A stretch of DNA of 64,000 nucleotides from Rhodospirillaceae bacterium (GTDB lineage Bacteria > Pseudomonadota > Alphaproteobacteria > Rhodospirillales > Rhodospirillaceae): positions 62,001-126,000 of the forward strand of contig JAVJSV010000016.1 in assembly GCA_040219235.1 (NCBI GenBank), in the 5' to 3' direction. Shown here in pieces: positions 974 through 27,347 of the stretch (the first letter of the stretch is position 1; each line of letters opens with the position of its first letter). The position numbers and the translations under genes were made by a program. The notes beneath the pieces are model-generated. The model made no database searches, was not told the DNA's origin, and saw only the letters and a program-made list of their open reading frames with translations.

Positions 974-1014
974 ACTCAGTTTCTTGATGGTGCTATGATG
1001 AAGGCAAAAGAAGG

Positions 1015-2349
1015 ATGTTTGGTGTGCGTATAAGCTGGCTTTCATTGGCAACAGCGTTTGCAGCGCTTTTAACTGCTGCCACAGCACAAGCCCAGGTTCA
1101 GATCGATATCACGCGGGGACGTGTCGAGCCCATGCCGATTGCGGTCGCGCTCTTCTCTGGAAACGGTGACGCCGCCGCGAGCATTGGGCAAGATGTGAGT
1201 TCTGTCATTTCTAATGACTTAGAGCGATCAGGTCTTTTTAACCCGATTGATCGGGATGCCTTTATTCAAGCCTTACCCTCGCTAGATGTGCAGCCGCGTT
1301 TTGCGGATTGGCGCGCACTGAATGCCCAAGCCTTGGTGCAAGGCGAGATAGAAACACAGCCCAATGGTCAGGTTCGGGTTGCTTTCCGCTTATGGGATGT
1401 TTTCGGCGGACAACAGATGATTGGGCAGGCCTATGTTACCCAACCAGAGAATTGGCGGCGCGTTTCGCACATTATTGCTGATGCTATTTACACTCAGATT
1501 ACCGGCGAAACCGGTTATTTTGATACGCGCGTTGTCTACGTGTCAGAGAGTGGGCCGGGTACGGCACGTGTCAAACGGCTCGCGATTATGGATCAAGATG
1601 GGGCAGGACACCGCTTTCTCACCGACGGGTCTGCGCTTGTTTTGACCCCGCGTTTCTCGCCGACAGCGCAAGAAATCACGTATCTCTCGTATTTTCGCAA
1701 TGTTCCCCGTGTCTATCTCTTTAACATTGATACGGGACGCCAAGAGCTGCTGGGGGACTTCCCGGGCATGACCTATGCGCCGCGGTTTTCACCAGATGGT
1801 AATAAAGTAACTTTTTCCATGGCCGCCGATGGCAATTCAGAAATCTATGAGATGGATCTCAGAACTCGTCGAACATTGAGGTTGACCAATCACCCTGCGA
1901 TCGACACCTCTTCCTCCTATGCCCCGGATGGTAAGCAGTTAACATTCAACTCGGATCGCGGTGGAAGCCAACAAATCTACGTGATGAACTCAGATGGATC
2001 AGAAGCGCGTAGAATTAGCTTTGGGAGTGGCCGCTACGCAACACCGGTCTGGTCGCCCAGAGGTGACCTCATTGCCTTTACACGTATGAGTGGTGGTAAC
2101 TTCTATATTGGGGTTATGGAGCCCAATGGTGAAAACGAGCGTTTGTTGGCTCAGGGCTTCCTTATGGAGTCTCCCACATGGGCCCCAAATGGCCGGGTTT
2201 TAATGTATTATGCGCAGTCACCGACCCGTGCAGACGGTTCTGGCGGACGCACTCGGCTTTATTCAATTGACTTGACCGGGTACAACCAAAGAGAGATGTT
2301 AACACCTCAAGATGCTTCAGATCCGGCGTGGTCACCCTTGATTCCTTAG
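1015..2349 (+). CDS. tolB: Tol-Pal system protein TolB
   Basis: A 444-residue periplasmic protein. Residues 1-27 form a signal peptide ending in an ATAQA-Q-type cleavage site. The N-terminal domain (to about residue 160) is followed by a beta-propeller whose blades are marked by repeated FSPDG, YAPDG, WSPRG and WAPNG motifs. TolB binds Pal and the C-terminal domain of TolA. The length fits the family. An upstream in-frame ATG pair is absent; the ATG at 1015 is preceded by AAAAGAAGG, a good ribosome binding site, and the signal peptide begins directly there. Confidence 0.96.
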
Positions 2350-2459
2350 TGAACAAGGGTGAAAAAAGGGGACCTTTTTGAGCTTTAACGTGTCTTTGTT
2401 AAGTGTGGACTTAATGGAATCACTTGCGTCCTAGTGAACAACTGATAAAAGTCCTACCG

Positions 2460-2481
2460 AACACCTAAGAAAATAGGTGTT
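2460..2481 (+). promoter_or_regulatory. Hairpin in the tolB-pal gap
   Basis: A perfect 8-bp stem (AACACCTA/TAGGTGTT) with a 6-base loop sits about 60 bases upstream of pal. It is followed by AAAA rather than a T-run, so it does not look like a classic terminator on the plus strand. It could be a processing site, attenuator or transcript stabiliser separating tolB from pal. The rest of the 190-base gap shows no gene. Confidence 0.4.
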
Positions 2482-2539
2482 AAAAGTCGCCATTTTGTGC
2501 ATATTTACGTCATTCTTGTGACCGAAGGGAAGAAATAAA

Positions 2540-3040
2540 ATGATGGTCCGTTTCACTAGCGCCGTCGCCGCTATCGCTCTTTTGGCTGCCTGTGCATCCG
2601 ATCCAAAGGATGACATGGGTTCCGACTCAATGGGAAGCACCCAGCCAGCTCCTGCTGCTCCGGCAGCACCATCCGGCCCAGCTATGGATTCTGCTGAGTA
2701 CTTCAACCAAGTGGTTGGCAATGGAGTTTACTTTGGCCTCGACCAATACGATCTGAACAGTGCAGCGCAAGCCACTCTTCGGGGTCAAGCGTCATGGTTG
2801 AGTCAAAACCCTTCACGTTCGATCGTTATTGAAGGGCACTGTGACGAGCGTGGCACCCGCGAGTACAACCTCGGTCTTGGTGAGCGCCGTGCAAATGCTG
2901 TTAAGGATTACCTCGTCTCTCTTGGTGTGACACCAAGCAGAGTTCGTACGATTTCTTATGGCAAAGAACGCCCTGTGTGTGTTGCGTCCAGTGAAGACTG
3001 CTGGAATCGTAACCGACGCGGTGTGTCTGTCGTACAATAG
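2540..3040 (+). CDS. pal: Peptidoglycan-associated lipoprotein Pal
   Basis: A 166-residue outer-membrane lipoprotein. The signal peptide ends in the lipobox LLAAC with the lipidated Cys at residue 18, followed by a Pro/Ala-rich tether and an OmpA-like peptidoglycan-binding domain (about 55-166) with IVIEGHCDERGTREYNLGLG and the NRRG motif near the end. Pal anchors the outer membrane to peptidoglycan and binds TolB. The start is the first of two adjacent ATG codons, preceded by GAAGGGAAG. The gene is followed by a strong hairpin terminator, so pal probably ends the tol transcript. Confidence 0.97.
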   Translation: MMVRFTSAVAAIALLAACASDPKDDMGSDSMGSTQPAPAAPAAPSGPAMDSAEYFNQVVGNGVYFGLDQYDLNSAAQATLRGQASWLSQNPSRSIVIEGHCDERGTREYNLGLGERRANAVKDYLVSLGVTPSRVRTISYGKERPVCVASSEDCWNRNRRGVSVVQ

Positions 3041-3081
3041 CGGTTAGCACTTCAACTCACTTCTGAGTTGTTGCGTAATTA

Positions 3082-3117
3082 AAACGGCGGCTCTCTGCAT
3101 AGCAGGAGCCGCCGTTT
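3082..3117 (+). terminator. Rho-independent-type terminator after pal
   Basis: AAACGGCGGCTC pairs with GAGCCGCCGTTT (12 bp), and the loop contains a further CTGC-ATA-GCAG stem. A T-containing tail (TTTGCCTTATTT) follows. A smaller hairpin, CAACTCA-CTTC-TGAGTTG at 3053-3070, lies just upstream, giving two tandem hairpins after the pal stop codon. Confidence 0.8.
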
Positions 3118-3179
3118 GCCTTATTTCCGCCTTGCATTCGCGATATCCAACATACTCTTTTCTGGAAGATTGCCGCGCT

Positions 3180-4487
3180 ATGTCACGTCTGTTGTTAAAT
3201 TTTACATCATTAACGAACCTTTTGGCCGTCACTTGTTTGACCTCGATGTTGGCCACCACCACGCATGCTCAGTCCCCGCTTGATGTTCGTGTTTTGAGTG
3301 AACGGGTTGAGCAGCTTGAACGACAGCTCTCCGCCCTCCAAGGACAGGGGGGCTCCTCGGTCCAAATGCCGCTTTCGCCGCAACAAACAGGCACAGACGC
3401 GCAACAGATGCCGACCGACGTGGCCAGCCGATTGCAGGTTCGTGTGCTGCAACTTGAACGCTTAGTCGAAACGATGACAGGTCAGGTGGAAGAGGCACGC
3501 TTCGAGATTTCTAGGCTGAGGTCTGAACTGCAAAGACTATCGAGTGATGTGTCTTATCGCTTGGCCGTATTGGAGCAGGCTGCTGGTATTTCTTCTGCAG
3601 TTGCTAATGCGCCAGGTGAAGCAGGAGCATTGGTTCAAGATCAATCCAATGTGACTCCTTCAGCGCAATTCGGGGGTATGGCTGAAAACAACTTTGCTCA
3701 GTCTGAAGCTCGCCCAGAAGGACGTATCGAACCAGATATGAACATGCCGATGTCCACGCCAGTTCAAGCCCAGCCTCAATTGCAATTGCAACGGCCAGCC
3801 GGGCAAGCCACTGTGACGTCTTCAGGTGTTAGCGACTTGGAGAGTGGAGGTACTTTTAGGGCACCAGTTCAGCCAGGACCAATTAATCAGGGTAATACGT
3901 TTGGCGTTCTCAGAACCGATGAAGAAGGCACTCCACTGCCTGCTGCGCCTGGTTCCACAAGCGCGCCCATTAGCCAGCCAGCTCCGCAGGCGTTTCAAGC
4001 GCCACCAGCCATGCAAGCGGCACCCTCACCTGGTCCGGTGTCAGCGGCAAGAATAGGAACAGCATCAAGCGCAAACACGGCATTTATTGCATTGCCGAAC
4101 GGTACACCCCAGCAGCAATATGATTATGCTTTTGATATCCTGCGGCAGGCTGACTATGCCAGTGCAGAACGCGCCCTTCGTCTATTTCTTGAAGCACACA
4201 GCACAGATGCCCTTGCCGGAAATGCCCAGTATTGGTTAGGTGAAACCTATTATGTCAGAGGCGATTTCGAGCAGGCGGCTGTAGAGTTCTTATCAGGATA
4301 CCAGACGTATCCGACCAGTTCTAAGGGGCCTGACAACCTTCTGAAACTTGGCCTGTCTATGGCGCGTCTGGGCCAGACTGATGGTGCCTGTACGGCACTG
4401 ACAAGATTGGCAACGGAATACCCATCAGCCAGCGACACAATCCGTCGGCGCGCGCAGACCGAGAGGGCTCGGTTAAAGTGCAGTTAA
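3180..4487 (+). CDS. cpoB: Cell division coordinator CpoB (YbgF)
   Basis: A 435-residue periplasmic protein. It has a signal peptide (about 1-31, ending THAQS), N-terminal coiled-coil segments rich in Leu, Glu and Gln (about 35-135), a long Gln/Pro/Ala-rich linker, and C-terminal TPR repeats (about 315-435) with YDYAFDILRQADYASAERAL and QYWLGETYYVRGDFEQA. CpoB binds TolA and coordinates outer-membrane constriction with PBP1B. The ATG at 3180 is chosen because the signal peptide starts there; an in-frame TTG at 3132 would add 16 residues that do not fit one. It follows the pal terminator and lies 3 bases before tilS. Confidence 0.9.
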   Translation: MSRLLLNFTSLTNLLAVTCLTSMLATTTHAQSPLDVRVLSERVEQLERQLSALQGQGGSSVQMPLSPQQTGTDAQQMPTDVASRLQVRVLQLERLVETMTGQVEEARFEISRLRSELQRLSSDVSYRLAVLEQAAGISSAVANAPGEAGALVQDQSNVTPSAQFGGMAENNFAQSEARPEGRIEPDMNMPMSTPVQAQPQLQLQRPAGQATVTSSGVSDLESGGTFRAPVQPGPINQGNTFGVLRTDEEGTPLPAAPGSTSAPISQPAPQAFQAPPAMQAAPSPGPVSAARIGTASSANTAFIALPNGTPQQQYDYAFDILRQADYASAERALRLFLEAHSTDALAGNAQYWLGETYYVRGDFEQAAVEFLSGYQTYPTSSKGPDNLLKLGLSMARLGQTDGACTALTRLATEYPSASDTIRRRAQTERARLKCS

Positions 4488-17191: not shown

Positions 17192-18481
17192 GTGACAAAT
17201 GTAGCAGTGATCGGCGCACAATGGGGCGACGAGGGAAAAGGCAAGGTTGTTGATTGGCTCTCTGAGAGGGCCGACATGGTAGTGCGTTTCCAAGGTGGTC
17301 ACAATGCAGGCCACACTTTAGTGATTGACGGCGAAACCTATAAACTTAGTCTCCTGCCATCAGGTGCTGTTCGCGGTAAACCCTCCATTATTGGCAATGG
17401 CGTAGTGATAGATCCCTGGGCCTTATTTGAAGAAATTGACAGGGTAACTGGCCAAGGTGTTCGTATTGATCCTGATATTCTTCAGATTGCTGACAATGCG
17501 TGTCTGATCCTGCCACTTCACCGGAATTTAGACTTAGCAAGAGAAGACGCGGCTGGAACTGCCAAAATTGGTACCACTGGCCGTGGCATAGGCCCAGCCT
17601 ACGAAGATAAGGTTGCTCGTCGAGCCATTCGAGTTTGTGACCTTGCAGATCCGGACACGATAAAATTCAAAGTTGATCGTTTATTGGCTCATCACAACGC
17701 TTTGCTTAAAGGTCTTGGACAAGCTGAAATTGATCGCCAGGAGTTGATTACGGCCATTACAGAGATGGCGCCAAAAATACTGCCGTACGCAACTTCTACG
17801 TGGGAGAAACTTGATGAAGCACGCCGAAGCGGTAAGCGGATTTTATTTGAAGGTGCCCAGGGGATAATGTTGGACCTGGATCATGGAACATATCCTTACG
17901 TCACGTCTTCTAACACGGTTGCTGGACAAGCGGCAGTTGGCTCAGGGCTAGGTCCTGATGCCGTCGGCTATGTTCTTGGAATCACCAAGTCTTATACGAC
18001 GCGCGTTGGTTCCGGACCGTTTCCCACGGAATTAGACGATGATGTTGGCAAGACCCTTGGCACCCGAGGCCGGGAATTTGGTACTGTGACTGGCCGCCAG
18101 CGCAGATGCGGCTGGTTTGACGCGGTCATGGTCCGGCAAGCCGTTAAGGTTGGTGGAATTACAGGGATTGCCTTAACTAAATTAGATGTCTTGGATACGT
18201 TGAAGGAACTCAAGGTTTGCGTTGCTTATGAGTTGAAAGGCAAGACAATCATGCGTTTTCCATCCGCAATGGCAGAGCAGGCAGCTGTAAAACCAGTATA
18301 TGAAACGCTTGACGGGTGGAACCAAAGTACCGAAGGCGCGAGATCATGGGCTGATTTGCCTGCGGAAGCGATCAAGTATATCCGCAGAATTGAAGAGCTT
18401 ATTGATGCTCCGGTCGCATTATTATCGACCAGTCCAGAACGCGAAGACACTATTCTAGTGCGCGATCCGTTTGCGGATTAG
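17192..18481 (+). CDS. purA: Adenylosuccinate synthase PurA
   Basis: Makes adenylosuccinate from IMP, aspartate and GTP in AMP synthesis. The 429-residue protein has the signature [11 protein letters not shown] at about residues 8-18, GGHNAGHT, the switch region [14 protein letters not shown] and the GTP-base loop LTKLDVLD. The GTG start follows GGATAAAG. It is followed by a hairpin terminator, so hisZ-purA probably ends a transcript. Confidence 0.98.
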
Positions 18482-18622: not shown

Positions 18623-20785
18623 ATGGCTGAACAGGTAGCAGATTTAGAAACGGAATTGGCTTCGCCCAGTGATCAGGCGTCGTCGAATACTGGTGAGTCT
18701 GGCGCCAAAGCGGATTCAAAAGTGCCAAACGAAGCTGGACGCCAGGCTGAAAATGCGAAACAGCCCATTCCACCGCCTGAACAAGCCGTTGGCGGTAATG
18801 CTATAACCGTTCGTGATCGCTACAGTATTTATTACGACAAGCCTATTCCCAGCCTTGATATGCCTAACGCTTTAGCTTTTGAGGTCGAGGATAGAAAGCA
18901 GCCCGGACGTGCTTTGTATGCACTCGTCAGTAAGCCGGAGATGTTGGCCCGCATTAGTGTGATGCGGATTCTCAAGAGCAATGAGATTCCACACATGCTT
19001 CCGATGGTCGATTGGGGAGCCGCTGATTGGCCTCCGGCTGAGCGCAAGTGCATCATCATCATCTATCATCGACCGCTTGGCGGTCGGGTGATGGATAGCT
19101 TGACGGTCGTTCGTGACAGAATTCCGGATCATCAGTTTCCGAAGCTCATCATTAAACCTATTGCAGATGCTCTGATTGAGCTTGGCCAAAAAGGGATTAC
19201 TCACCGCGCTATTCGACCAGACAATCTCTACTTCATGGACGAGACTCGCCAAAAGATTGTCCTGGGGGATTGTTGTACCGCGGTTGCCGCCAGTGAACAG
19301 CCGGCTGTGGTTGAATCAATCGAGTCTGGCATGAGCAACGTTTATGGTCGCGGCTCCGGCATGTACGCAGATGATATGTACGCCTTTGGCGTCAGCCTCA
19401 TCATTCTCGCGCTTGGGCGAAATCCTATGGCTGGGAAATCTGATGCGGATGTTATTGATCGTAAAATCAAAGAAGGCTCGTATGCAGCGTTGGTTGGGGA
19501 CGAGCGTCTGCCGGTCTCTTTGATTGAGTGTTTGCGCGGCTTAGTAACGGATGACCCAGAGCAGCGGTGGCAAGTTCAAAATATTGACCTTTGGATCAAT
19601 GGTAAGCGGCTGACACCTGTTCAAGCGAAGGCCGAGGCGCATTCACAGCGCAGTTTCAAATTCGCTGGGAAGGAGTTTTGGTCATGCCGTCCCCTCGCTG
19701 TGGAGTTGCACCGCCATTGGGATGAGGCTGTTAAAGTTATAAGCGATGGCACATTAGAAATATGGATACGTCGTGGCTTAGAGCAGTCAGACCTTGCGGA
19801 TGCAATCTCCGCTGCGACAAAGACGTCAAAAGCTATGCCCGGAGACCAGAAAGAATCCGATGATGTTCTGGTCGCTAGAATTCTTATGCTGATGGATCCA
19901 ACAGCACCTATTCGATATCGCACTTTTTGTTGTCATATCGAGGGCTTTGGATCGGCATTGGCAATCGCGATGCTGCAGAAAAAATCGCTCCAGCCATATA
20001 TTGATTTTATCAATAAGGATCTATGGCGTTATTGGGTTTCGGCCCAAACGACTTATCATCCTGATCATGGCCAATGGGAAGGCGTGTTCAGAGATCTAAA
20101 AAACTATCTCAAGGATACAAATTCAGGGGCAGGGATAGAACGCGTCGTTTATGAACTTAATGAGTGGCTGTATTGCCTAAGTCCCCTTATTGCCAATCAA
20201 TACGTATTAGAAGTTAAGAGCGTACTGCCAGCCCTTGATATCGTCTCGAAGACAGCAAATACAAAAATGTGGCCGGTAGACCGTCACGTTGCGGCTTTTC
20301 TAAGGGCACGTTATGCGAAGGGGACTGGAACGCAAATTGACGCGATGAATGATGATCGACCGGACCGCGCAGCGACAGGAATGTTGAGTGTTTTGGCGAT
20401 TGTGCAATGGCGGCTGGGACCAGAAGCTGTTTTTGGTCTTGCGAGTTGGGTTGGTGGTCTCATGGGGCCTATTATCAACAGCTACCAGAATCGCCAGAAG
20501 CGTAAAGAAATTGAAAAAGAAATTCCTAAATTAGTGCGCAAAGGCAACTTACCGGAGCTTTATAATTTTCTCGATAATCCTGAAGAGCGGCAACGAGATG
20601 CCGAGGGTTTTGCTTGGGCTAAAGCTGAGTATGCTGCGGCTGAGAAGCAGATGTACGAGCTTCAGCATGGCCAGATGGACCGCGATGAAAATGCGTTGAA
20701 GACGGGGCGTCAGGCCGGGGCAGCTGTTGCTGTTGTGATCATGCTGTTGGCTTATGCGGTTGCCCTTATTGGAGAGGCGTTTTAG
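18623..20785 (+). CDS. Protein-kinase-fold protein, probable pseudokinase, with C-terminal membrane anchor
   Basis: A 720-residue protein. After a disordered Ser/Glu/Pro-rich N-terminus (1-60), residues about 65-330 show a protein-kinase fold. Visible elements are GITHRAIRPDNLYF (catalytic loop, 192-204), LGDCCTA at the DFG position (214-220), ADDMYAFGVSLIILALGRNP (helix F, 249-268) and DPEQRW (311-316). In the HRD motif the catalytic Asp is Ala196 and the loop Lys is Arg198, so normal phosphotransfer is doubtful; Asn201 and Asp216 remain. A possible beta-3 Lys is Lys104. Residues about 330-690 are a long helical region I do not recognise, and about 695-718 is a membrane helix. The next gene, a membrane protein, starts at the base after the stop. 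Confidence 0.8.
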   Translation: MAEQVADLETELASPSDQASSNTGESGAKADSKVPNEAGRQAENAKQPIPPPEQAVGGNAITVRDRYSIYYDKPIPSLDMPNALAFEVEDRKQPGRALYALVSKPEMLARISVMRILKSNEIPHMLPMVDWGAADWPPAERKCIIIIYHRPLGGRVMDSLTVVRDRIPDHQFPKLIIKPIADALIELGQKGITHRAIRPDNLYFMDETRQKIVLGDCCTAVAASEQPAVVESIESGMSNVYGRGSGMYADDMYAFGVSLIILALGRNPMAGKSDADVIDRKIKEGSYAALVGDERLPVSLIECLRGLVTDDPEQRWQVQNIDLWINGKRLTPVQAKAEAHSQRSFKFAGKEFWSCRPLAVELHRHWDEAVKVISDGTLEIWIRRGLEQSDLADAISAATKTSKAMPGDQKESDDVLVARILMLMDPTAPIRYRTFCCHIEGFGSALAIAMLQKKSLQPYIDFINKDLWRYWVSAQTTYHPDHGQWEGVFRDLKNYLKDTNSGAGIERVVYELNEWLYCLSPLIANQYVLEVKSVLPALDIVSKTANTKMWPVDRHVAAFLRARYAKGTGTQIDAMNDDRPDRAATGMLSVLAIVQWRLGPEAVFGLASWVGGLMGPIINSYQNRQKRKEIEKEIPKLVRKGNLPELYNFLDNPEERQRDAEGFAWAKAEYAAAEKQMYELQHGQMDRDENALKTGRQAGAAVAVVIMLLAYAVALIGEAF

Positions 20786-21265
20786 ATGTCTAGTACGCCA
20801 GGCCGCAGTAAAATGAATAAGAGCCGGATTTTCTTGTACCTCATGTTGGCGATTCCGATTGGTTTGATGATCGTGCCAACGATGATCGTGCTTATGTTCT
20901 CGCTGTTACCAAGCGCTGTAGCTTTTTTGATGGAGCGTGGAAAAGGCATCTATGCTGGACTTTGCGTGGGCGCTATGAATCTTGCGGGGGCATCACCTTA
21001 TCTTGCTGACCTATGGTTTTCAGGTCACACCACAGAAGGTGCCTTTGAAATTATCACGGACGTTTTTGCCGTGCTTGTTATATACGGATGTGCAGCTTTC
21101 GGGTGGGCCATCTATGCGTTCACGCCGTCTTTTGTTTCAGCCTTCATGGCAATGACGGCCGGCCGGCGGATCGCTGCGTTGCAGACCACTCAAAAAGATC
21201 TCGTTTTAAAGTGGGGCTCAGACGTGCAGTCTGTGTATGAACCGGAGGCCGAGAAAAAGAACTAA
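20786..21265 (+). CDS. Small multi-pass membrane protein coupled to the pseudokinase gene
   Basis: A 159-residue protein with about four hydrophobic helices (roughly 14-48, 52-72, 83-108 and 110-125) and a charged cytosolic tail ending EPEAEKKN. I recognise no family. Its ATG directly abuts the stop codon of the pseudokinase gene, so the two should be translated from one message and may form a membrane complex. The stop codon overlaps the stop of rluD on the other strand (CTAA). Confidence 0.75.
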   Translation: MSSTPGRSKMNKSRIFLYLMLAIPIGLMIVPTMIVLMFSLLPSAVAFLMERGKGIYAGLCVGAMNLAGASPYLADLWFSGHTTEGAFEIITDVFAVLVIYGCAAFGWAIYAFTPSFVSAFMAMTAGRRIAALQTTQKDLVLKWGSDVQSVYEPEAEKKN

Positions 21266-22257
21266 CGCTCTTTCTTGTCCGTTTGGATCGCGTCTAATTT
21301 TGACACAAGTATGGTGAAATCGTTAGGTAGCGTGGCCTCAAAGGTAAGTTTCTCATGGGTCTCCGGGTGTTCAAAACCAAGAACGGCAGCATGCAATGCC
21401 TGCCGCCCTAATACTTTTATAGCCTCTACAATATTTGGAGGTGTTCCGCGTTTGGCATCCCGCCCGTAGACCTGATCTCCCAATAAAGAGTGTCCTAAGC
21501 TTGTCATATGAACGCGTATTTGATGAGTGCGGCCAGTTTCCAATTCGCAAGATACATGACTGACCAAATGACCGAAGGTTCGCATCACCTTGTAGTGTGT
21601 GATAGCTATTTTTCCACCGACAGCGATGACAGACATCTTTTTTCTATTTCTAGTACTTCTTCCAATAGAGTTTTCCACGGTTCCACTCAATGGAGAGGGG
21701 ACACCCCATACCAGGGCATCGTATCGTCGTTTGATCGTATGGGAAGAGAATTGCTCACTAAGGCTATGATGGGCTCGTTCCGTTTTTGCGATGACCAAAA
21801 GACCTGACGTGTCTTTGTCGATTCTGTGGACAATACCTGGACGCTTCACGCCGCCTATTCCACTCAAGGATTCTCCGCAATGCGCAAGAAGCGCATTTAC
21901 AAGGGTTCCGTCGGCATTACCTGCGCCGGGGTGAACAACAAGACCCGAAGGTTTGTTGAGAACAATCAGATGGTCATCTTCATATTGAATGTCGAGCGGA
22001 ATTTCTTGCGGTATTGGGTAGTCTGGTTTTGGAAGTGGTGGCGAGAGTAAAAGAGTATCGCCAGTTCTTACGCGATGGTTTGGGTCTTTTACAACTTCAC
22101 CATCAAGTGTGGCATAGCCATCCTCGATTAGGGCTTTAACGCGAGAGCGCGATAGATCAGGTATGATGTCGGTTAAAATGCGGTCAAGTCGGATGCCATG
22201 TTGCTCTTCTTTGACCGTGCAACGAAAATGATTTTCAGACAATTCAACACCAAACAC
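21262..22257 (-). CDS. rluD: Ribosomal large subunit pseudouridine synthase, RluD family
   Basis: A 331-residue enzyme with an N-terminal S4 RNA-binding domain (about 15-75, GIRLDRILTDIIPDLSRSRV) and a RluA-type catalytic domain with HRIDKDTSGLLVIAKT (catalytic Asp) and LETGRTHQIRVHM. RluD makes the pseudouridines of helix 69 in 23S rRNA; RluC or RluA specificity cannot be excluded by eye. It starts at GTG. It is convergent with the membrane-protein gene, overlapping by 4 bases, and divergent from the gene at 22325. Confidence 0.92.
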   Translation of the reverse strand: MFGVELSENHFRCTVKEEQHGIRLDRILTDIIPDLSRSRVKALIEDGYATLDGEVVKDPNHRVRTGDTLLLSPPLPKPDYPIPQEIPLDIQYEDDHLIVLNKPSGLVVHPGAGNADGTLVNALLAHCGESLSGIGGVKRPGIVHRIDKDTSGLLVIAKTERAHHSLSEQFSSHTIKRRYDALVWGVPSPLSGTVENSIGRSTRNRKKMSVIAVGGKIAITHYKVMRTFGHLVSHVSCELETGRTHQIRVHMTSLGHSLLGDQVYGRDAKRGTPPNIVEAIKVLGRQALHAAVLGFEHPETHEKLTFEATLPNDFTILVSKLDAIQTDKKER

Positions 22258-25136: not shown

Positions 25137-25772
25137 TTAGAGCGTGCTTGCAATTTTGTATATTCTTACGGACTCGACCCTTGCCACTGGCTGTGGCGTT
25201 TGTGAGGATACTGTTTGGGCAAGCTGACGGCAACGCTTAAACCCCTTCCACCAATGCCGCATTGAGGCCGCAATAGGTTGTGCCATGTCCTGCCTAAAGA
25301 CGATGTCGTTGAACAGTTCTTTTGTATCCTCAAGTGTATGAAGATGAAGGAGTTCAGAAATCCGTTTCATTACAATGTCATGGGATTTTTTTGTGTCATC
25401 GGAGTCTGCGATCCGCACACGTTGCATAATGTCGAACACGAGGTCAGAGACCAGTCGATCTGACCGATCAGCAACGGTATCAATGCTTTCATTAATATCA
25501 GCGAGAATATCTTCTGCGATGTCGTCCTGATAAAGTGTTCGTATCTTTGCGGCTTCCATCGCGACGATGGCAGCATAGTAATAATAACGGAGCGGATGAG
25601 CTTCGAGGATGCCTCTTTTGTCTTCTAAACTCAGAGGCGTATCATCTAAGAAATTTGCTAGGCGATGCTCCCAAATAGGATAGCTTTTTTCAACAGTTTC
25701 GGCGACATCGTAGAGAAAAAGCTCTGCCGCATCTCGTGTTGTAACTGTGATTTTCGGAACCTGTTTTTCCAT
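25137..25772 (-). CDS. Uncharacterised helical protein
   Basis: A 211-residue protein, rich in Glu, Asp, Arg and Leu and predicted to be mostly helical and cytosolic. Segments such as HPLRYYYYAAIVAMEAAKIR and a basic C-terminus (HWWKGFKRCRQLAQ) stand out, but I recognise no domain. The ATG at 25772 is preferred over a GTG at 25784; an ACAGAG sits before it. It ends 5 bases from the racemase-like gene on the opposite strand. It is divergent from the unknown gene at 25968. Confidence 0.65.
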   Translation of the reverse strand: MEKQVPKITVTTRDAAELFLYDVAETVEKSYPIWEHRLANFLDDTPLSLEDKRGILEAHPLRYYYYAAIVAMEAAKIRTLYQDDIAEDILADINESIDTVADRSDRLVSDLVFDIMQRVRIADSDDTKKSHDIVMKRISELLHLHTLEDTKELFNDIVFRQDMAQPIAASMRHWWKGFKRCRQLAQTVSSQTPQPVARVESVRIYKIASTL

Positions 25773-25777
25773 CTCTG

Positions 25778-25888
25778 TCACCACATGTTGTACGTTCCAG
25801 TTATGATAACAACGTTTTGTGGCTCATCAGGTTGCATCGATATTTGAGGCTTAGCTGTAAAGCCCAGCAAAATAGTACTTTTAGTCAT
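25778..25888 (-). CDS. Possible 36-residue leader peptide
   Basis: A short frame beginning MTKSTILLGF and ending with TGA, located 5 bases upstream of the preferred ATG of the gene at 25772. The arrangement TGA-cagag-ATG would allow translational coupling. The residue composition is protein-like, but the only ribosome binding site (GCGAGAG) is very close to its ATG. It could equally be chance in the 183-base divergent gap (25785-25967). Confidence 0.25.
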   Translation of the reverse strand: MTKSTILLGFTAKPQISMQPDEPQNVVIITGTYNMW

Positions 25889-25967: not shown

Positions 25968-27347
25968 ATGTGGCTAATGCAGGATGTTCTGATGGCGGCC
26001 AAGGCGACAATACAGGAAGAACGACAGGAGCGGCGTGGTTCGCCAGAATTCCGGCTGCGGGCGCAGCAGGGTTATTCGGTGTTGCGCAAGATGATAACCA
26101 GTCATGGCAGCTCGGAGATCGGTGATGATCTCAAAAACATGCCAATGATTGAAGATGTCATGCGACAAAAGCCAGAGTTGGTTGGCGCTCTGCTAAAATC
26201 TGCCTGGCAATTACGTTCAAATGAAAAACTAGCAGAGTTTTTTAAGTCGGCTGTGACGCCCGAAAAAGTTGTAGACGGGCAAGATGAATCTATCTTGCCC
26301 TGTGATCGGACGTACGAAAGCACACTCCAGTCGCATCTGTTTGGTACCGTGCGTCTTTACATGAAACAGAAAGAGAATGCTTGGGTCCAGCGAAGAGTGT
26401 CGCGTCCTGAAAGTTTAGACAAAGAAGCCGTCGGTGGGTTTGTTAACTTTTTTCGCAAGCTGTTCGGTATGAAGCCTATCGTTAACGAAAATGTGGTCCG
26501 TGAATCCTACCCGAGCCGTGGGCTCTATGAGATATTAAAGCCTTACCTGTTGCACGCAGACCAATTTAAATACATCACGGCTTACTCGGGCCTGAGTGCT
26601 AAAGGTGCCTCGATTATTGGCGACATATTTGAGAATCTCAGGTCATCTACAGCGCTAAAGGTCGCTTGCACATTAAGCCCTGACGCTTTGTTAAGCGCCC
26701 GTGGATGCGCCCGTGCTTACGCTGAGTCCGGGATCTTCGCCGAGGTATTGGAAGAAGAAAAAGAAGTCGCTAGAAAACGCACACCACAAGAGATGCGGCG
26801 CGACAGTGAAATTGCACTGCGGATCAAACAAGATACGACCGTAATTTTTGCTGACATTCTCAATAATCATATTGAAAGCTTAGACTTTGTGAAACGCCAT
26901 AAAGCAGGGGCTGAAGCTGTTGTCAGAGCACTTGCGCCGCTTTACCAGGAGGAAACGTGGTCTATTTTGGCAGAGGATGGAGCCGTTGAGAACGTTATCA
27001 ACTGTCCGCCGACTGTCGCAAAGGAACTTGGCAAAGATGCGCGATATATTAACGCGCAAGTTTCTAAGTACATCACTCAGATGCATTATCCCGATATCGG
27101 AAGAGATATTATTGCGATTCTCCGTAAAGAGTTGAATGAAGAAAATTTCAGACGCTCTTTGCAAGATGAAGCAGCCATTAAGGTATGGGAGACCGTTCCA
27201 GGTACCTTTAACAATCGGTTCAAGTACCAACACGATGCTAAGGCTGGAGTTAAAGAGATCAAAAATTTCAAAGACTTATTGGGTGAAGCGAAACCCATCG
27301 TTGCTGATATGAGGAACGCTTTGGGACTTGAAAAACCAAAGCGGTAA
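25968..27347 (+). CDS. Uncharacterised 459-residue protein
   Basis: A large soluble protein rich in charged residues, with no membrane helix and no signal peptide. Segments include GLYEILKPYLLHADQFKYIT, ARKRTPQEMRRDSEIALRIK and a C-terminus NALGLEKPKR. I recognise no domain or catalytic motif. Internal ATG codons at 25977 and 25992 are alternative starts; the sequence does not decide. It is divergent from the gene at 25772 and lies 118 bases before the next unknown gene on the same strand. Confidence 0.7.
   Translation: MWLMQDVLMAAKATIQEERQERRGSPEFRLRAQQGYSVLRKMITSHGSSEIGDDLKNMPMIEDVMRQKPELVGALLKSAWQLRSNEKLAEFFKSAVTPEKVVDGQDESILPCDRTYESTLQSHLFGTVRLYMKQKENAWVQRRVSRPESLDKEAVGGFVNFFRKLFGMKPIVNENVVRESYPSRGLYEILKPYLLHADQFKYITAYSGLSAKGASIIGDIFENLRSSTALKVACTLSPDALLSARGCARAYAESGIFAEVLEEEKEVARKRTPQEMRRDSEIALRIKQDTTVIFADILNNHIESLDFVKRHKAGAEAVVRALAPLYQEETWSILAEDGAVENVINCPPTVAKELGKDARYINAQVSKYITQMHYPDIGRDIIAILRKELNEENFRRSLQDEAAIKVWETVPGTFNNRFKYQHDAKAGVKEIKNFKDLLGEAKPIVADMRNALGLEKPKR

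Follow-up and report, generated by a model that had tools for sequence, protein, structure and literature searches.

Bacterial pseudokinases are mostly known by sequence, and few of their functions have been described (PMC12599244, abstract). According to PMC12599244, on which all statements about described families made here rest, EssB/YukC is a catalytically dead, membrane-anchored kinase fold that acts as a scaffold of type VII secretion b in Firmicutes, and a membrane helix at the C-terminus is present in several of the pseudokinase families GLW, ActPs1-3, CP1, DYD and DLHK. GLW, CP1 and DLHK are found in proteobacteria, and DYD in actinobacteria and firmicutes. The pseudokinase domain of MviN from Mycobacterium (ActPs3) lies within a transmembrane protein that peptidoglycan synthesis requires. 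Here we describe two adjoining genes, designated A and B, in a 64,000-nucleotide (nt) stretch of a Rhodospirillaceae bacterium genome (contig JAVJSV010000016.1), i.e., the window, whose positions serve as coordinates throughout. Gene A encodes a pseudokinase that is probably tail-anchored and gene B a small membrane protein. We consider that A-B is probably a non-catalytic membrane-anchored module that many flagellated Alphaproteobacteria use for the flagellum or for motility, a scaffolding or regulatory role being the most likely.

A resembles EssB/YukC in having a dead kinase fold at the membrane, which in EssB/YukC is the scaffold of a membrane machine. It differs in belonging to Alphaproteobacteria instead of a Firmicutes secretion system, in its flagellar association, and in having both an additional helical domain (about 310 residues) and a partner, B. 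The two are compared by description only, and A lies outside any type VII locus, among neighbours of the hisZ, purA and rluD type. With GLW, ActPs1-3, CP1, DYD and DLHK, A shares a family-wide catalytic loss; however, the GLW family carries a GLW motif at HRD, where A has HRA in the window and His as the first residue in 153 of the 161 copies analysed below, and the DLHK family retains the HRD Asp, which the A family does not. In the parts of PMC12599244 consulted, none of the families is described with HRA, with the helical domain of A or with a B-like partner. The pseudokinase domain of MviN is coupled to the membrane like that of A, but it is built into a transmembrane protein, whereas A and B are separate genes with another partnership. 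A description of the A-B pair, or of a pseudokinase so tied to the flagellum, was not found in the literature searched, which mostly left subscription journals outside; the first-pass annotation of this stretch likewise knew of no system of this form. What is new here is thus a membrane pseudokinase pair with a new partner, B, that tracks the flagellum and has a testable function, and the case for the flagellar link is strong but correlative. If that link is right, the flagellum of A-B carriers has a two-protein membrane accessory not found described in that literature.

Gene A (18623..20785, plus strand, 720 amino acids) was delimited by its open reading frame (ORF), Pfam, motifs, AlphaFold2 and hydropathy, and is predicted to contain a bilobal protein kinase fold with a match beyond chance. 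The Pfam Pkinase profile (PF00069) matched A of the window with E 6e-6 and 26.3 bits, under the gathering cut-off of 31.7, and it matched 54 of 58 family members at E<=0.1, the best at 8e-10; the A family profile matched solved kinases with E 2e-13. The AlphaFold2 model of A alone, a check proposed in the first-pass annotation, was built with 58 aligned homologues and reached a predicted local distance difference test (pLDDT) score of 89.8 and a predicted template modelling score of 0.82. It places the kinase elements in order at about residues 60-335 (18800..19627, plus strand, delimited by predicted secondary structure and Foldseek matches to kinases), followed by a helical domain at 344-650 and a single helix at 653-719, with low confidence for residues 1-57. 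The best Foldseek matches of the model were kinases with E from 2e-8 to 3e-7, i.e., WNK3 (2e-8), PknB (6e-8) and also ULK1. A is therefore similar in fold to PknB-type Ser/Thr kinases, from which it differs by the loss of the beta-3 Lys and the HRD Asp and by its extra helical domain. Two more specific assignments were rejected: the MADS6 antiphage kinase (NF047741) scored 36.7 against an NCBIfam cut-off of 460 bits over residues 176-317 only, and the LanL class IV lanthionine synthetase (NF038150) scored 34.3 against 650 bits over residues 177-331 only.

The HRD-loop equivalent of A, H194-R-A196-I-R198-P-D-N201 (19202..19225), has its Ala196 codon, at the position of the catalytic Asp, at 19208-19210, and the DFG equivalent G215-D216-C217 lies at 19265..19273, all placed by motif reading on the plus strand; D251-M-Y-A-F-G follows, and Val102 occupies the beta-3 Lys position. 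Motif reading, profile, AlphaFold2 and Foldseek thus agree with the kinase fold carrying Ala at HRD, GD at DFG and DxxxFG that had been proposed from the window alone. We compared 161 distinct A copies from the order and the class, including that of the window and leaving out open frames shorter than 600 amino acids, a floor that excludes most split or frameshifted copies. Position 196 was occupied by A in 99, S in 21, G in 17, N in 10, Q, E and R in 3 each and T in 2, with D (locus L091), C and M once each, and an earlier count of 71 A sequences of the order found no Asp at all. The catalytic substitution, which the first-pass annotation had left to be checked against homologues, is therefore not a lone mutation. 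The beta-3 position held V in 83, I in 54, L in 14, M in 3, A and K in 2 each, R and T in 1 each and a gap in 1, so that V, I or L was present in 151, and no copy combined the HRD Asp with a beta-3 Lys or Arg. Conserved were His194 (153), Arg198 (143), Asn201 (155), Gly215 (157) and Asp251 (161), whereas position 216, that of the DFG Asp, was D in 96, E in 48, P in 9, Q in 7 and A in 1, i.e., acidic in 144. As judged from these positions, the residues for phosphotransfer have gone from the A family although the metal site is partly preserved, and its pseudokinase status is well supported at this level. The idea that A is a lone mutant or pseudogene was rejected, as 255 of 297 order genomes match it at E<=1e-3.

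An open frame of 907 residues in genome G684, outside the class, carries Lys, HRD and DFG and is related to A over the kinase region and the first part of the helical domain (locus L139, G684:C21:436000-442500, ORF 988-3627, minus strand); it adjoins genes that by eye resemble a PP2C phosphatase and an FHA protein. By its sequence, the A family may descend from an active kinase, with the G684 type as a possible active ancestor. This distant relative in its PP2C-like and FHA-like setting is what speaks for A still being an active but atypical protein kinase, which we consider highly improbable in view of a single HRD Asp among 161 copies, never with a beta-3 Lys or Arg. Hardly better is the prospect that A uses the kinase fold for a different enzymatic reaction, as in AMPylation by SelO or glutamylation by SidJ: such precedents are given in PMC12599244 and the polar pocket residues His194, Asn201 and acidic 216 are mostly kept, but both SelO and SidJ have Lys at the ATP-binding motif according to a table in that source, where A has Lys in 2 copies, Arg in 1 and V, I or L in nearly all others. 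We rate it as very unlikely.

Behind the kinase-like domain, the first-pass annotation had seen a region of unknown fold and a C-terminal membrane helix, and both held up. The helical domain, modelled alone as residues 338-655 (19634..20587, plus strand; about 310 residues), reached a pLDDT of 94.3. It gave no Foldseek match to solved structures at E<=0.001 and no convincing sequence match to them (best E 0.02 over 23 residues), none of 861 chains in a VIA-align comparison reached Z>=5, and no Pfam family covers it in A of the window. As modelled, it is a domain without a clear solved relative, which does not prove a new fold. The final 26 residues of A (695-720; 20705..20782, plus strand) are one hydrophobic stretch, forming the end of the helix predicted from residue 653, and such a hydrophobic tail is present in 106 of 111 A homologues. 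This suggests that A is probably a tail-anchored protein whose domains face the cytosol.

Gene B (20786..21265, plus strand, 159 amino acids, delimited by its ORF and hydropathy) starts immediately behind A: the TAG stop of A occupies 20783-20785 and the ATG of B begins at 20786, with zero bases between, so both ORFs had been placed correctly. The description of B as a four-helix membrane protein fared less uniformly; its start at the base after the stop is right, but the number of helices may differ from four, hydropathy giving two hydrophobic blocks at 12-52 and 85-114. Seven residues are invariant in 52 aligned members (P42, N65, G106, P114, Q136, W143 and G144). B of the window has no Pfam match at E<=1 and no NCBIfam match, the Pfam matches among the 52 members are scattered over one or two members each, and an hhalign comparison of B with a single MotA (locus L085) gave E 0.34 over 8 columns.

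A-B is an old, conserved and mostly single-copy pair of its order, and this is well supported. A profile search found A in 255 of the 297 genomes of the order of the window, mostly in a single copy, and in 189 of the 210 genomes of good quality, while B was found in 254. The two occurred together in 251 genomes, A only in 4 (G024, G048, G122 and G289), B only in 3 (G072, plus G242 and G266, where it is a relic) and neither in 39, so that 290 of 297 genomes are concordant. B lies on the same strand at most 700 nt downstream of A in 153 of the 161 copies, with eight exceptions. The proposed coupling of an inactive kinase domain with a membrane partner gene is borne out by this co-occurrence together with the residues described above. 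In ten order genomes, A and B are both kept on separate contigs (in one of them, G126, A is at a contig end, so the separation there is unsure), and their co-occurrence is thus not due to linkage alone. In genomes with tandem A-B units (G647, G570), the first copies are more similar between genomes (A1/A1 68%, B1/B1 57-71% identity) than the two copies are to each other (A1/A2 43-46%, B1/B2 about 31%), indicating that the pair was duplicated as a unit. In the class, the A profile matched 144 of 385 genomes, 131 of them at E below 1e-15; in 120 genomes drawn from the phylum, including some Alphaproteobacteria, there were 4 full-length A matches, all in the class, and the remaining matches covered the kinase region or little more.

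A flagellar link was suggested by genome G428, where a tandem unit directly precedes flagellar genes in the row A-B-A-B-flhA-motA-sigma54 activator. We therefore sought the flagellar markers FlhA (PF00771) and rod proteins (PF00460) in the same genomes as A. In the class, after dropping 13 weak A matches (E above 1e-15), FlhA was present in 118 and absent in 13 of the 131 genomes with A, and present in 103 and absent in 151 of the 254 without A. In the order, after dropping or resetting the rows of G048, G174 and G289, whose A is weak or a relic, and of G242, whose FlhA is weak, the corresponding numbers were 230 and 22 with A (n=252) and 18 and 27 without A (n=45). Since many FlhA-negative genomes are incomplete, rod genes were considered too, in the class only in the 13 genomes with A but without FlhA. 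At least two rod genes were present in 10 of these 13 and in 19 of the 22 such genomes of the order, and in 10 of the 27 order genomes that lack both A and FlhA. In a refined order table, with FlhA or at least two rod genes taken as flagellar and G223 reset as an FlhA relic, the flagellar genes were present in 248 and absent in 4 genomes with A, and present in 28 and absent in 17 without A. A is thus nearly always accompanied by flagellar genes, while flagella often occur without A.

To lessen the effect of relatedness, the 54 genomes of the family of the window were tabulated separately, with the intactness of A taken from reading frames, G236 (split by a contig end) counted as intact and the rod genes of G251 not included. 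Both A and FlhA were intact in 39 genomes and neither in 11 (Fisher p 6e-8, relatedness ignored); intact A without intact FlhA was found in two (G193, G223), and the reverse in two (G227, G263). The sole control gene run, PhaC, showed no association in 48 genomes of the family (27, 8, 11 and 2; p 0.71), where PhaC was scored as absent in G291 and G295 because of their weak matches; the search covered 59 genomes, A data being available for all but 11.

The decay of the two systems is also shared. In the genus of the window, A and FlhA are both intact in G000 and G295 and neither is intact in G242, G266 and G269. In G251, of the same genus (3.6 Mb), a frameshift interrupts A near residue 118, and FlhA is reduced to residues 340-726, which contain an in-frame stop and lie midway along a contig of 67 kb. 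Between purA and rluD, all that is left in G242 and G266 is the end of B, from residue 100 onward, and in G289 a fragment of A of 57 residues. G266 and G289 have no FlhA, while in G242 it survives as a deleted relic comprising residues 18-98 and 705-726, next to a sigma-54 activator that is broken; in G223 only its residues 1-105 remain, and G018, G183 and G280 combine a frameshifted A with an absent FlhA. The lesions differ in place, which indicates several separate events unless some are assembly faults. A-B was lost or decayed together with flagellar genes, and this evidence is strong but correlative. It bears on the view that A-B is a general envelope or cell-pole module following a free-living, larger-genome lifestyle, the flagellar correlation arising from shared lifestyle and genome reduction. 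Some flagellum-less genomes are indeed small (G198 and G219, 1.3-1.4 Mb), and hisZ, purA, rpoH or rluD was near A in 54 of 83 class loci (not in 29, some by contig end), flagellar genes in few. However, G242, G266 and G289 lost both A-B and flagellar genes at 3.1-3.5 Mb, G251 has A and FlhA both broken at 3.6 Mb, and PhaC is kept in 11 of 13 family genomes without intact FlhA, so we regard lifestyle as an unlikely explanation.

Several other observations weigh against a role of A-B in the flagellum or against a purely non-catalytic one. Most sampled A copies adjoin purA, rpoH or rluD and not flagellar genes. Besides G428, a flagellar row was seen in G327, comprising flgI, a rod-binding (flgJ-type) gene, a flgN-like gene (its FlgN score falls under the cut-off), flgK, a gene of 639 residues that matches nothing in Pfam and is flgL-like by position, A, and a DUF3137 gene in place of B; such contexts, in 2 of the 29 loci without hisZ, purA, rpoH or rluD, are little above chance and only suggestive, and we gave them low weight as independent proof. 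The rod-gene criterion weakens the family table, with broken A counted as present, to 43 genomes with both A and flagellar genes, 2 with A only, 3 with flagellar genes only and 6 with neither (p 8e-5), because G018, G183, G280 and G291, all without FlhA, keep 6, 3, 3 and 6 rod genes. Intact A persists with FlhA absent (G193) or a relic (G223), with one weak rod match each, and in G408 of the class with neither FlhA nor a rod match. Conversely, FlhA occurs without A in an order branch (G031, G048, G062, G074, G086 and G105), and flagella without A are common, with FlhA in 103 of 254 such genomes in the class and FlhA or rods in 28 of 45 in the order. The Fisher values take no account of relatedness, and many of the sequences are metagenome-assembled genomes (MAGs) or drafts, in which a missing or frameshifted gene may be an artefact of assembly. 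A may be an accessory instead of an essential part, or have a second role. Finally, Asn201 and the acidic residue at 216 persist in most copies, so A may bind a ligand.

The last point also fits A as a nucleotide- or ligand-binding switch to flagellar expression or chemotaxis with B as its membrane sensor, a special form of the favoured explanation, as does the sigma-54 activator that stands besides flhA and motA in the row of G428. An orphan B in G310 (locus L135) adjoins a response regulator and a hybrid histidine kinase with HisKA, HATPase, receiver and Hpt domains, which would suit such a sensor; further B homologues without an adjoining A are L136 and L137 of the same genome and L138 of G597. 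Conversely, the beta-3 Lys is present in only 2 of the 161 copies, and Pfam and NCBIfam scans of the window proteins and Pfam scans of the family members found no output domain of a known signalling family in A or B. We hold the switch to be rather unlikely.

In the explanation we favour, A-B would form a single inner-membrane module in which the C-terminal anchor of A holds the dead kinase fold and the helical domain on the cytosolic side of the membrane, with B as the membrane partner that A presumably binds. The module would serve the flagellum or motility without phosphotransfer and would most likely scaffold or regulate a flagellar membrane structure, i.e., the export apparatus, basal body or motor, or its placement, so that its site of action would be the flagellum proper, as distinct from flagellar regulation or chemotaxis. 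We infer a scaffold role of the dead kinase fold from the likeness to EssB/YukC. In a stricter version, possible but tentative, A-B is a built-in flagellar part in a large group of Alphaproteobacteria, and the dead kinase, as a counterpart of EssB/YukC of type VII secretion, has become a structural or gating element within the export apparatus or motor. The readings weighed here are partly compatible with the favoured one, so their likelihoods need not total one. For a class of proteins with so few known functions, the distribution of A-B points to a concrete and testable one, motility.

The pair lies in the window among hisZ, purA and a rluD-type gene as its nearest neighbours. As landmarks outside the pair, purA is the conserved upstream neighbour (17192..18481, plus strand; ORF list and comparison of loci), and the rluD-type pseudouridine synthase (21262..22257, minus strand; Pfam PseudoU_synth_2 and S4) is the convergent downstream one. 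Elsewhere in the window, the ORFs at 25140-25784 (minus strand, 215 amino acids) and 25968-27344 (plus strand, 459 amino acids) are without a Pfam match at E<=0.001. In other genomes, A at locus L003 (CALSLN010000002.1, MAG A_MB309) is frameshifted near residue 586. Second A copies at L147 (G391) and L153 (G339) lie near TPR genes, which resemble a TPR/glycosyltransferase-41 gene and others in the flagellar region of the window genome (L142, L143). In plasmid records of Azospirillum ramasamyi and A. thermophilum (L117, L118), A is annotated as a serine/threonine protein kinase and B as a hypothetical protein; the former label is unsupported by the residues of the A family at large. On the 883-kb plasmid of A. 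thermophilum, the row reads phosphoserine transaminase, a hypothetical gene, hisZ, purA (annotated as adenylosuccinate synthase), A, B and rpoH.

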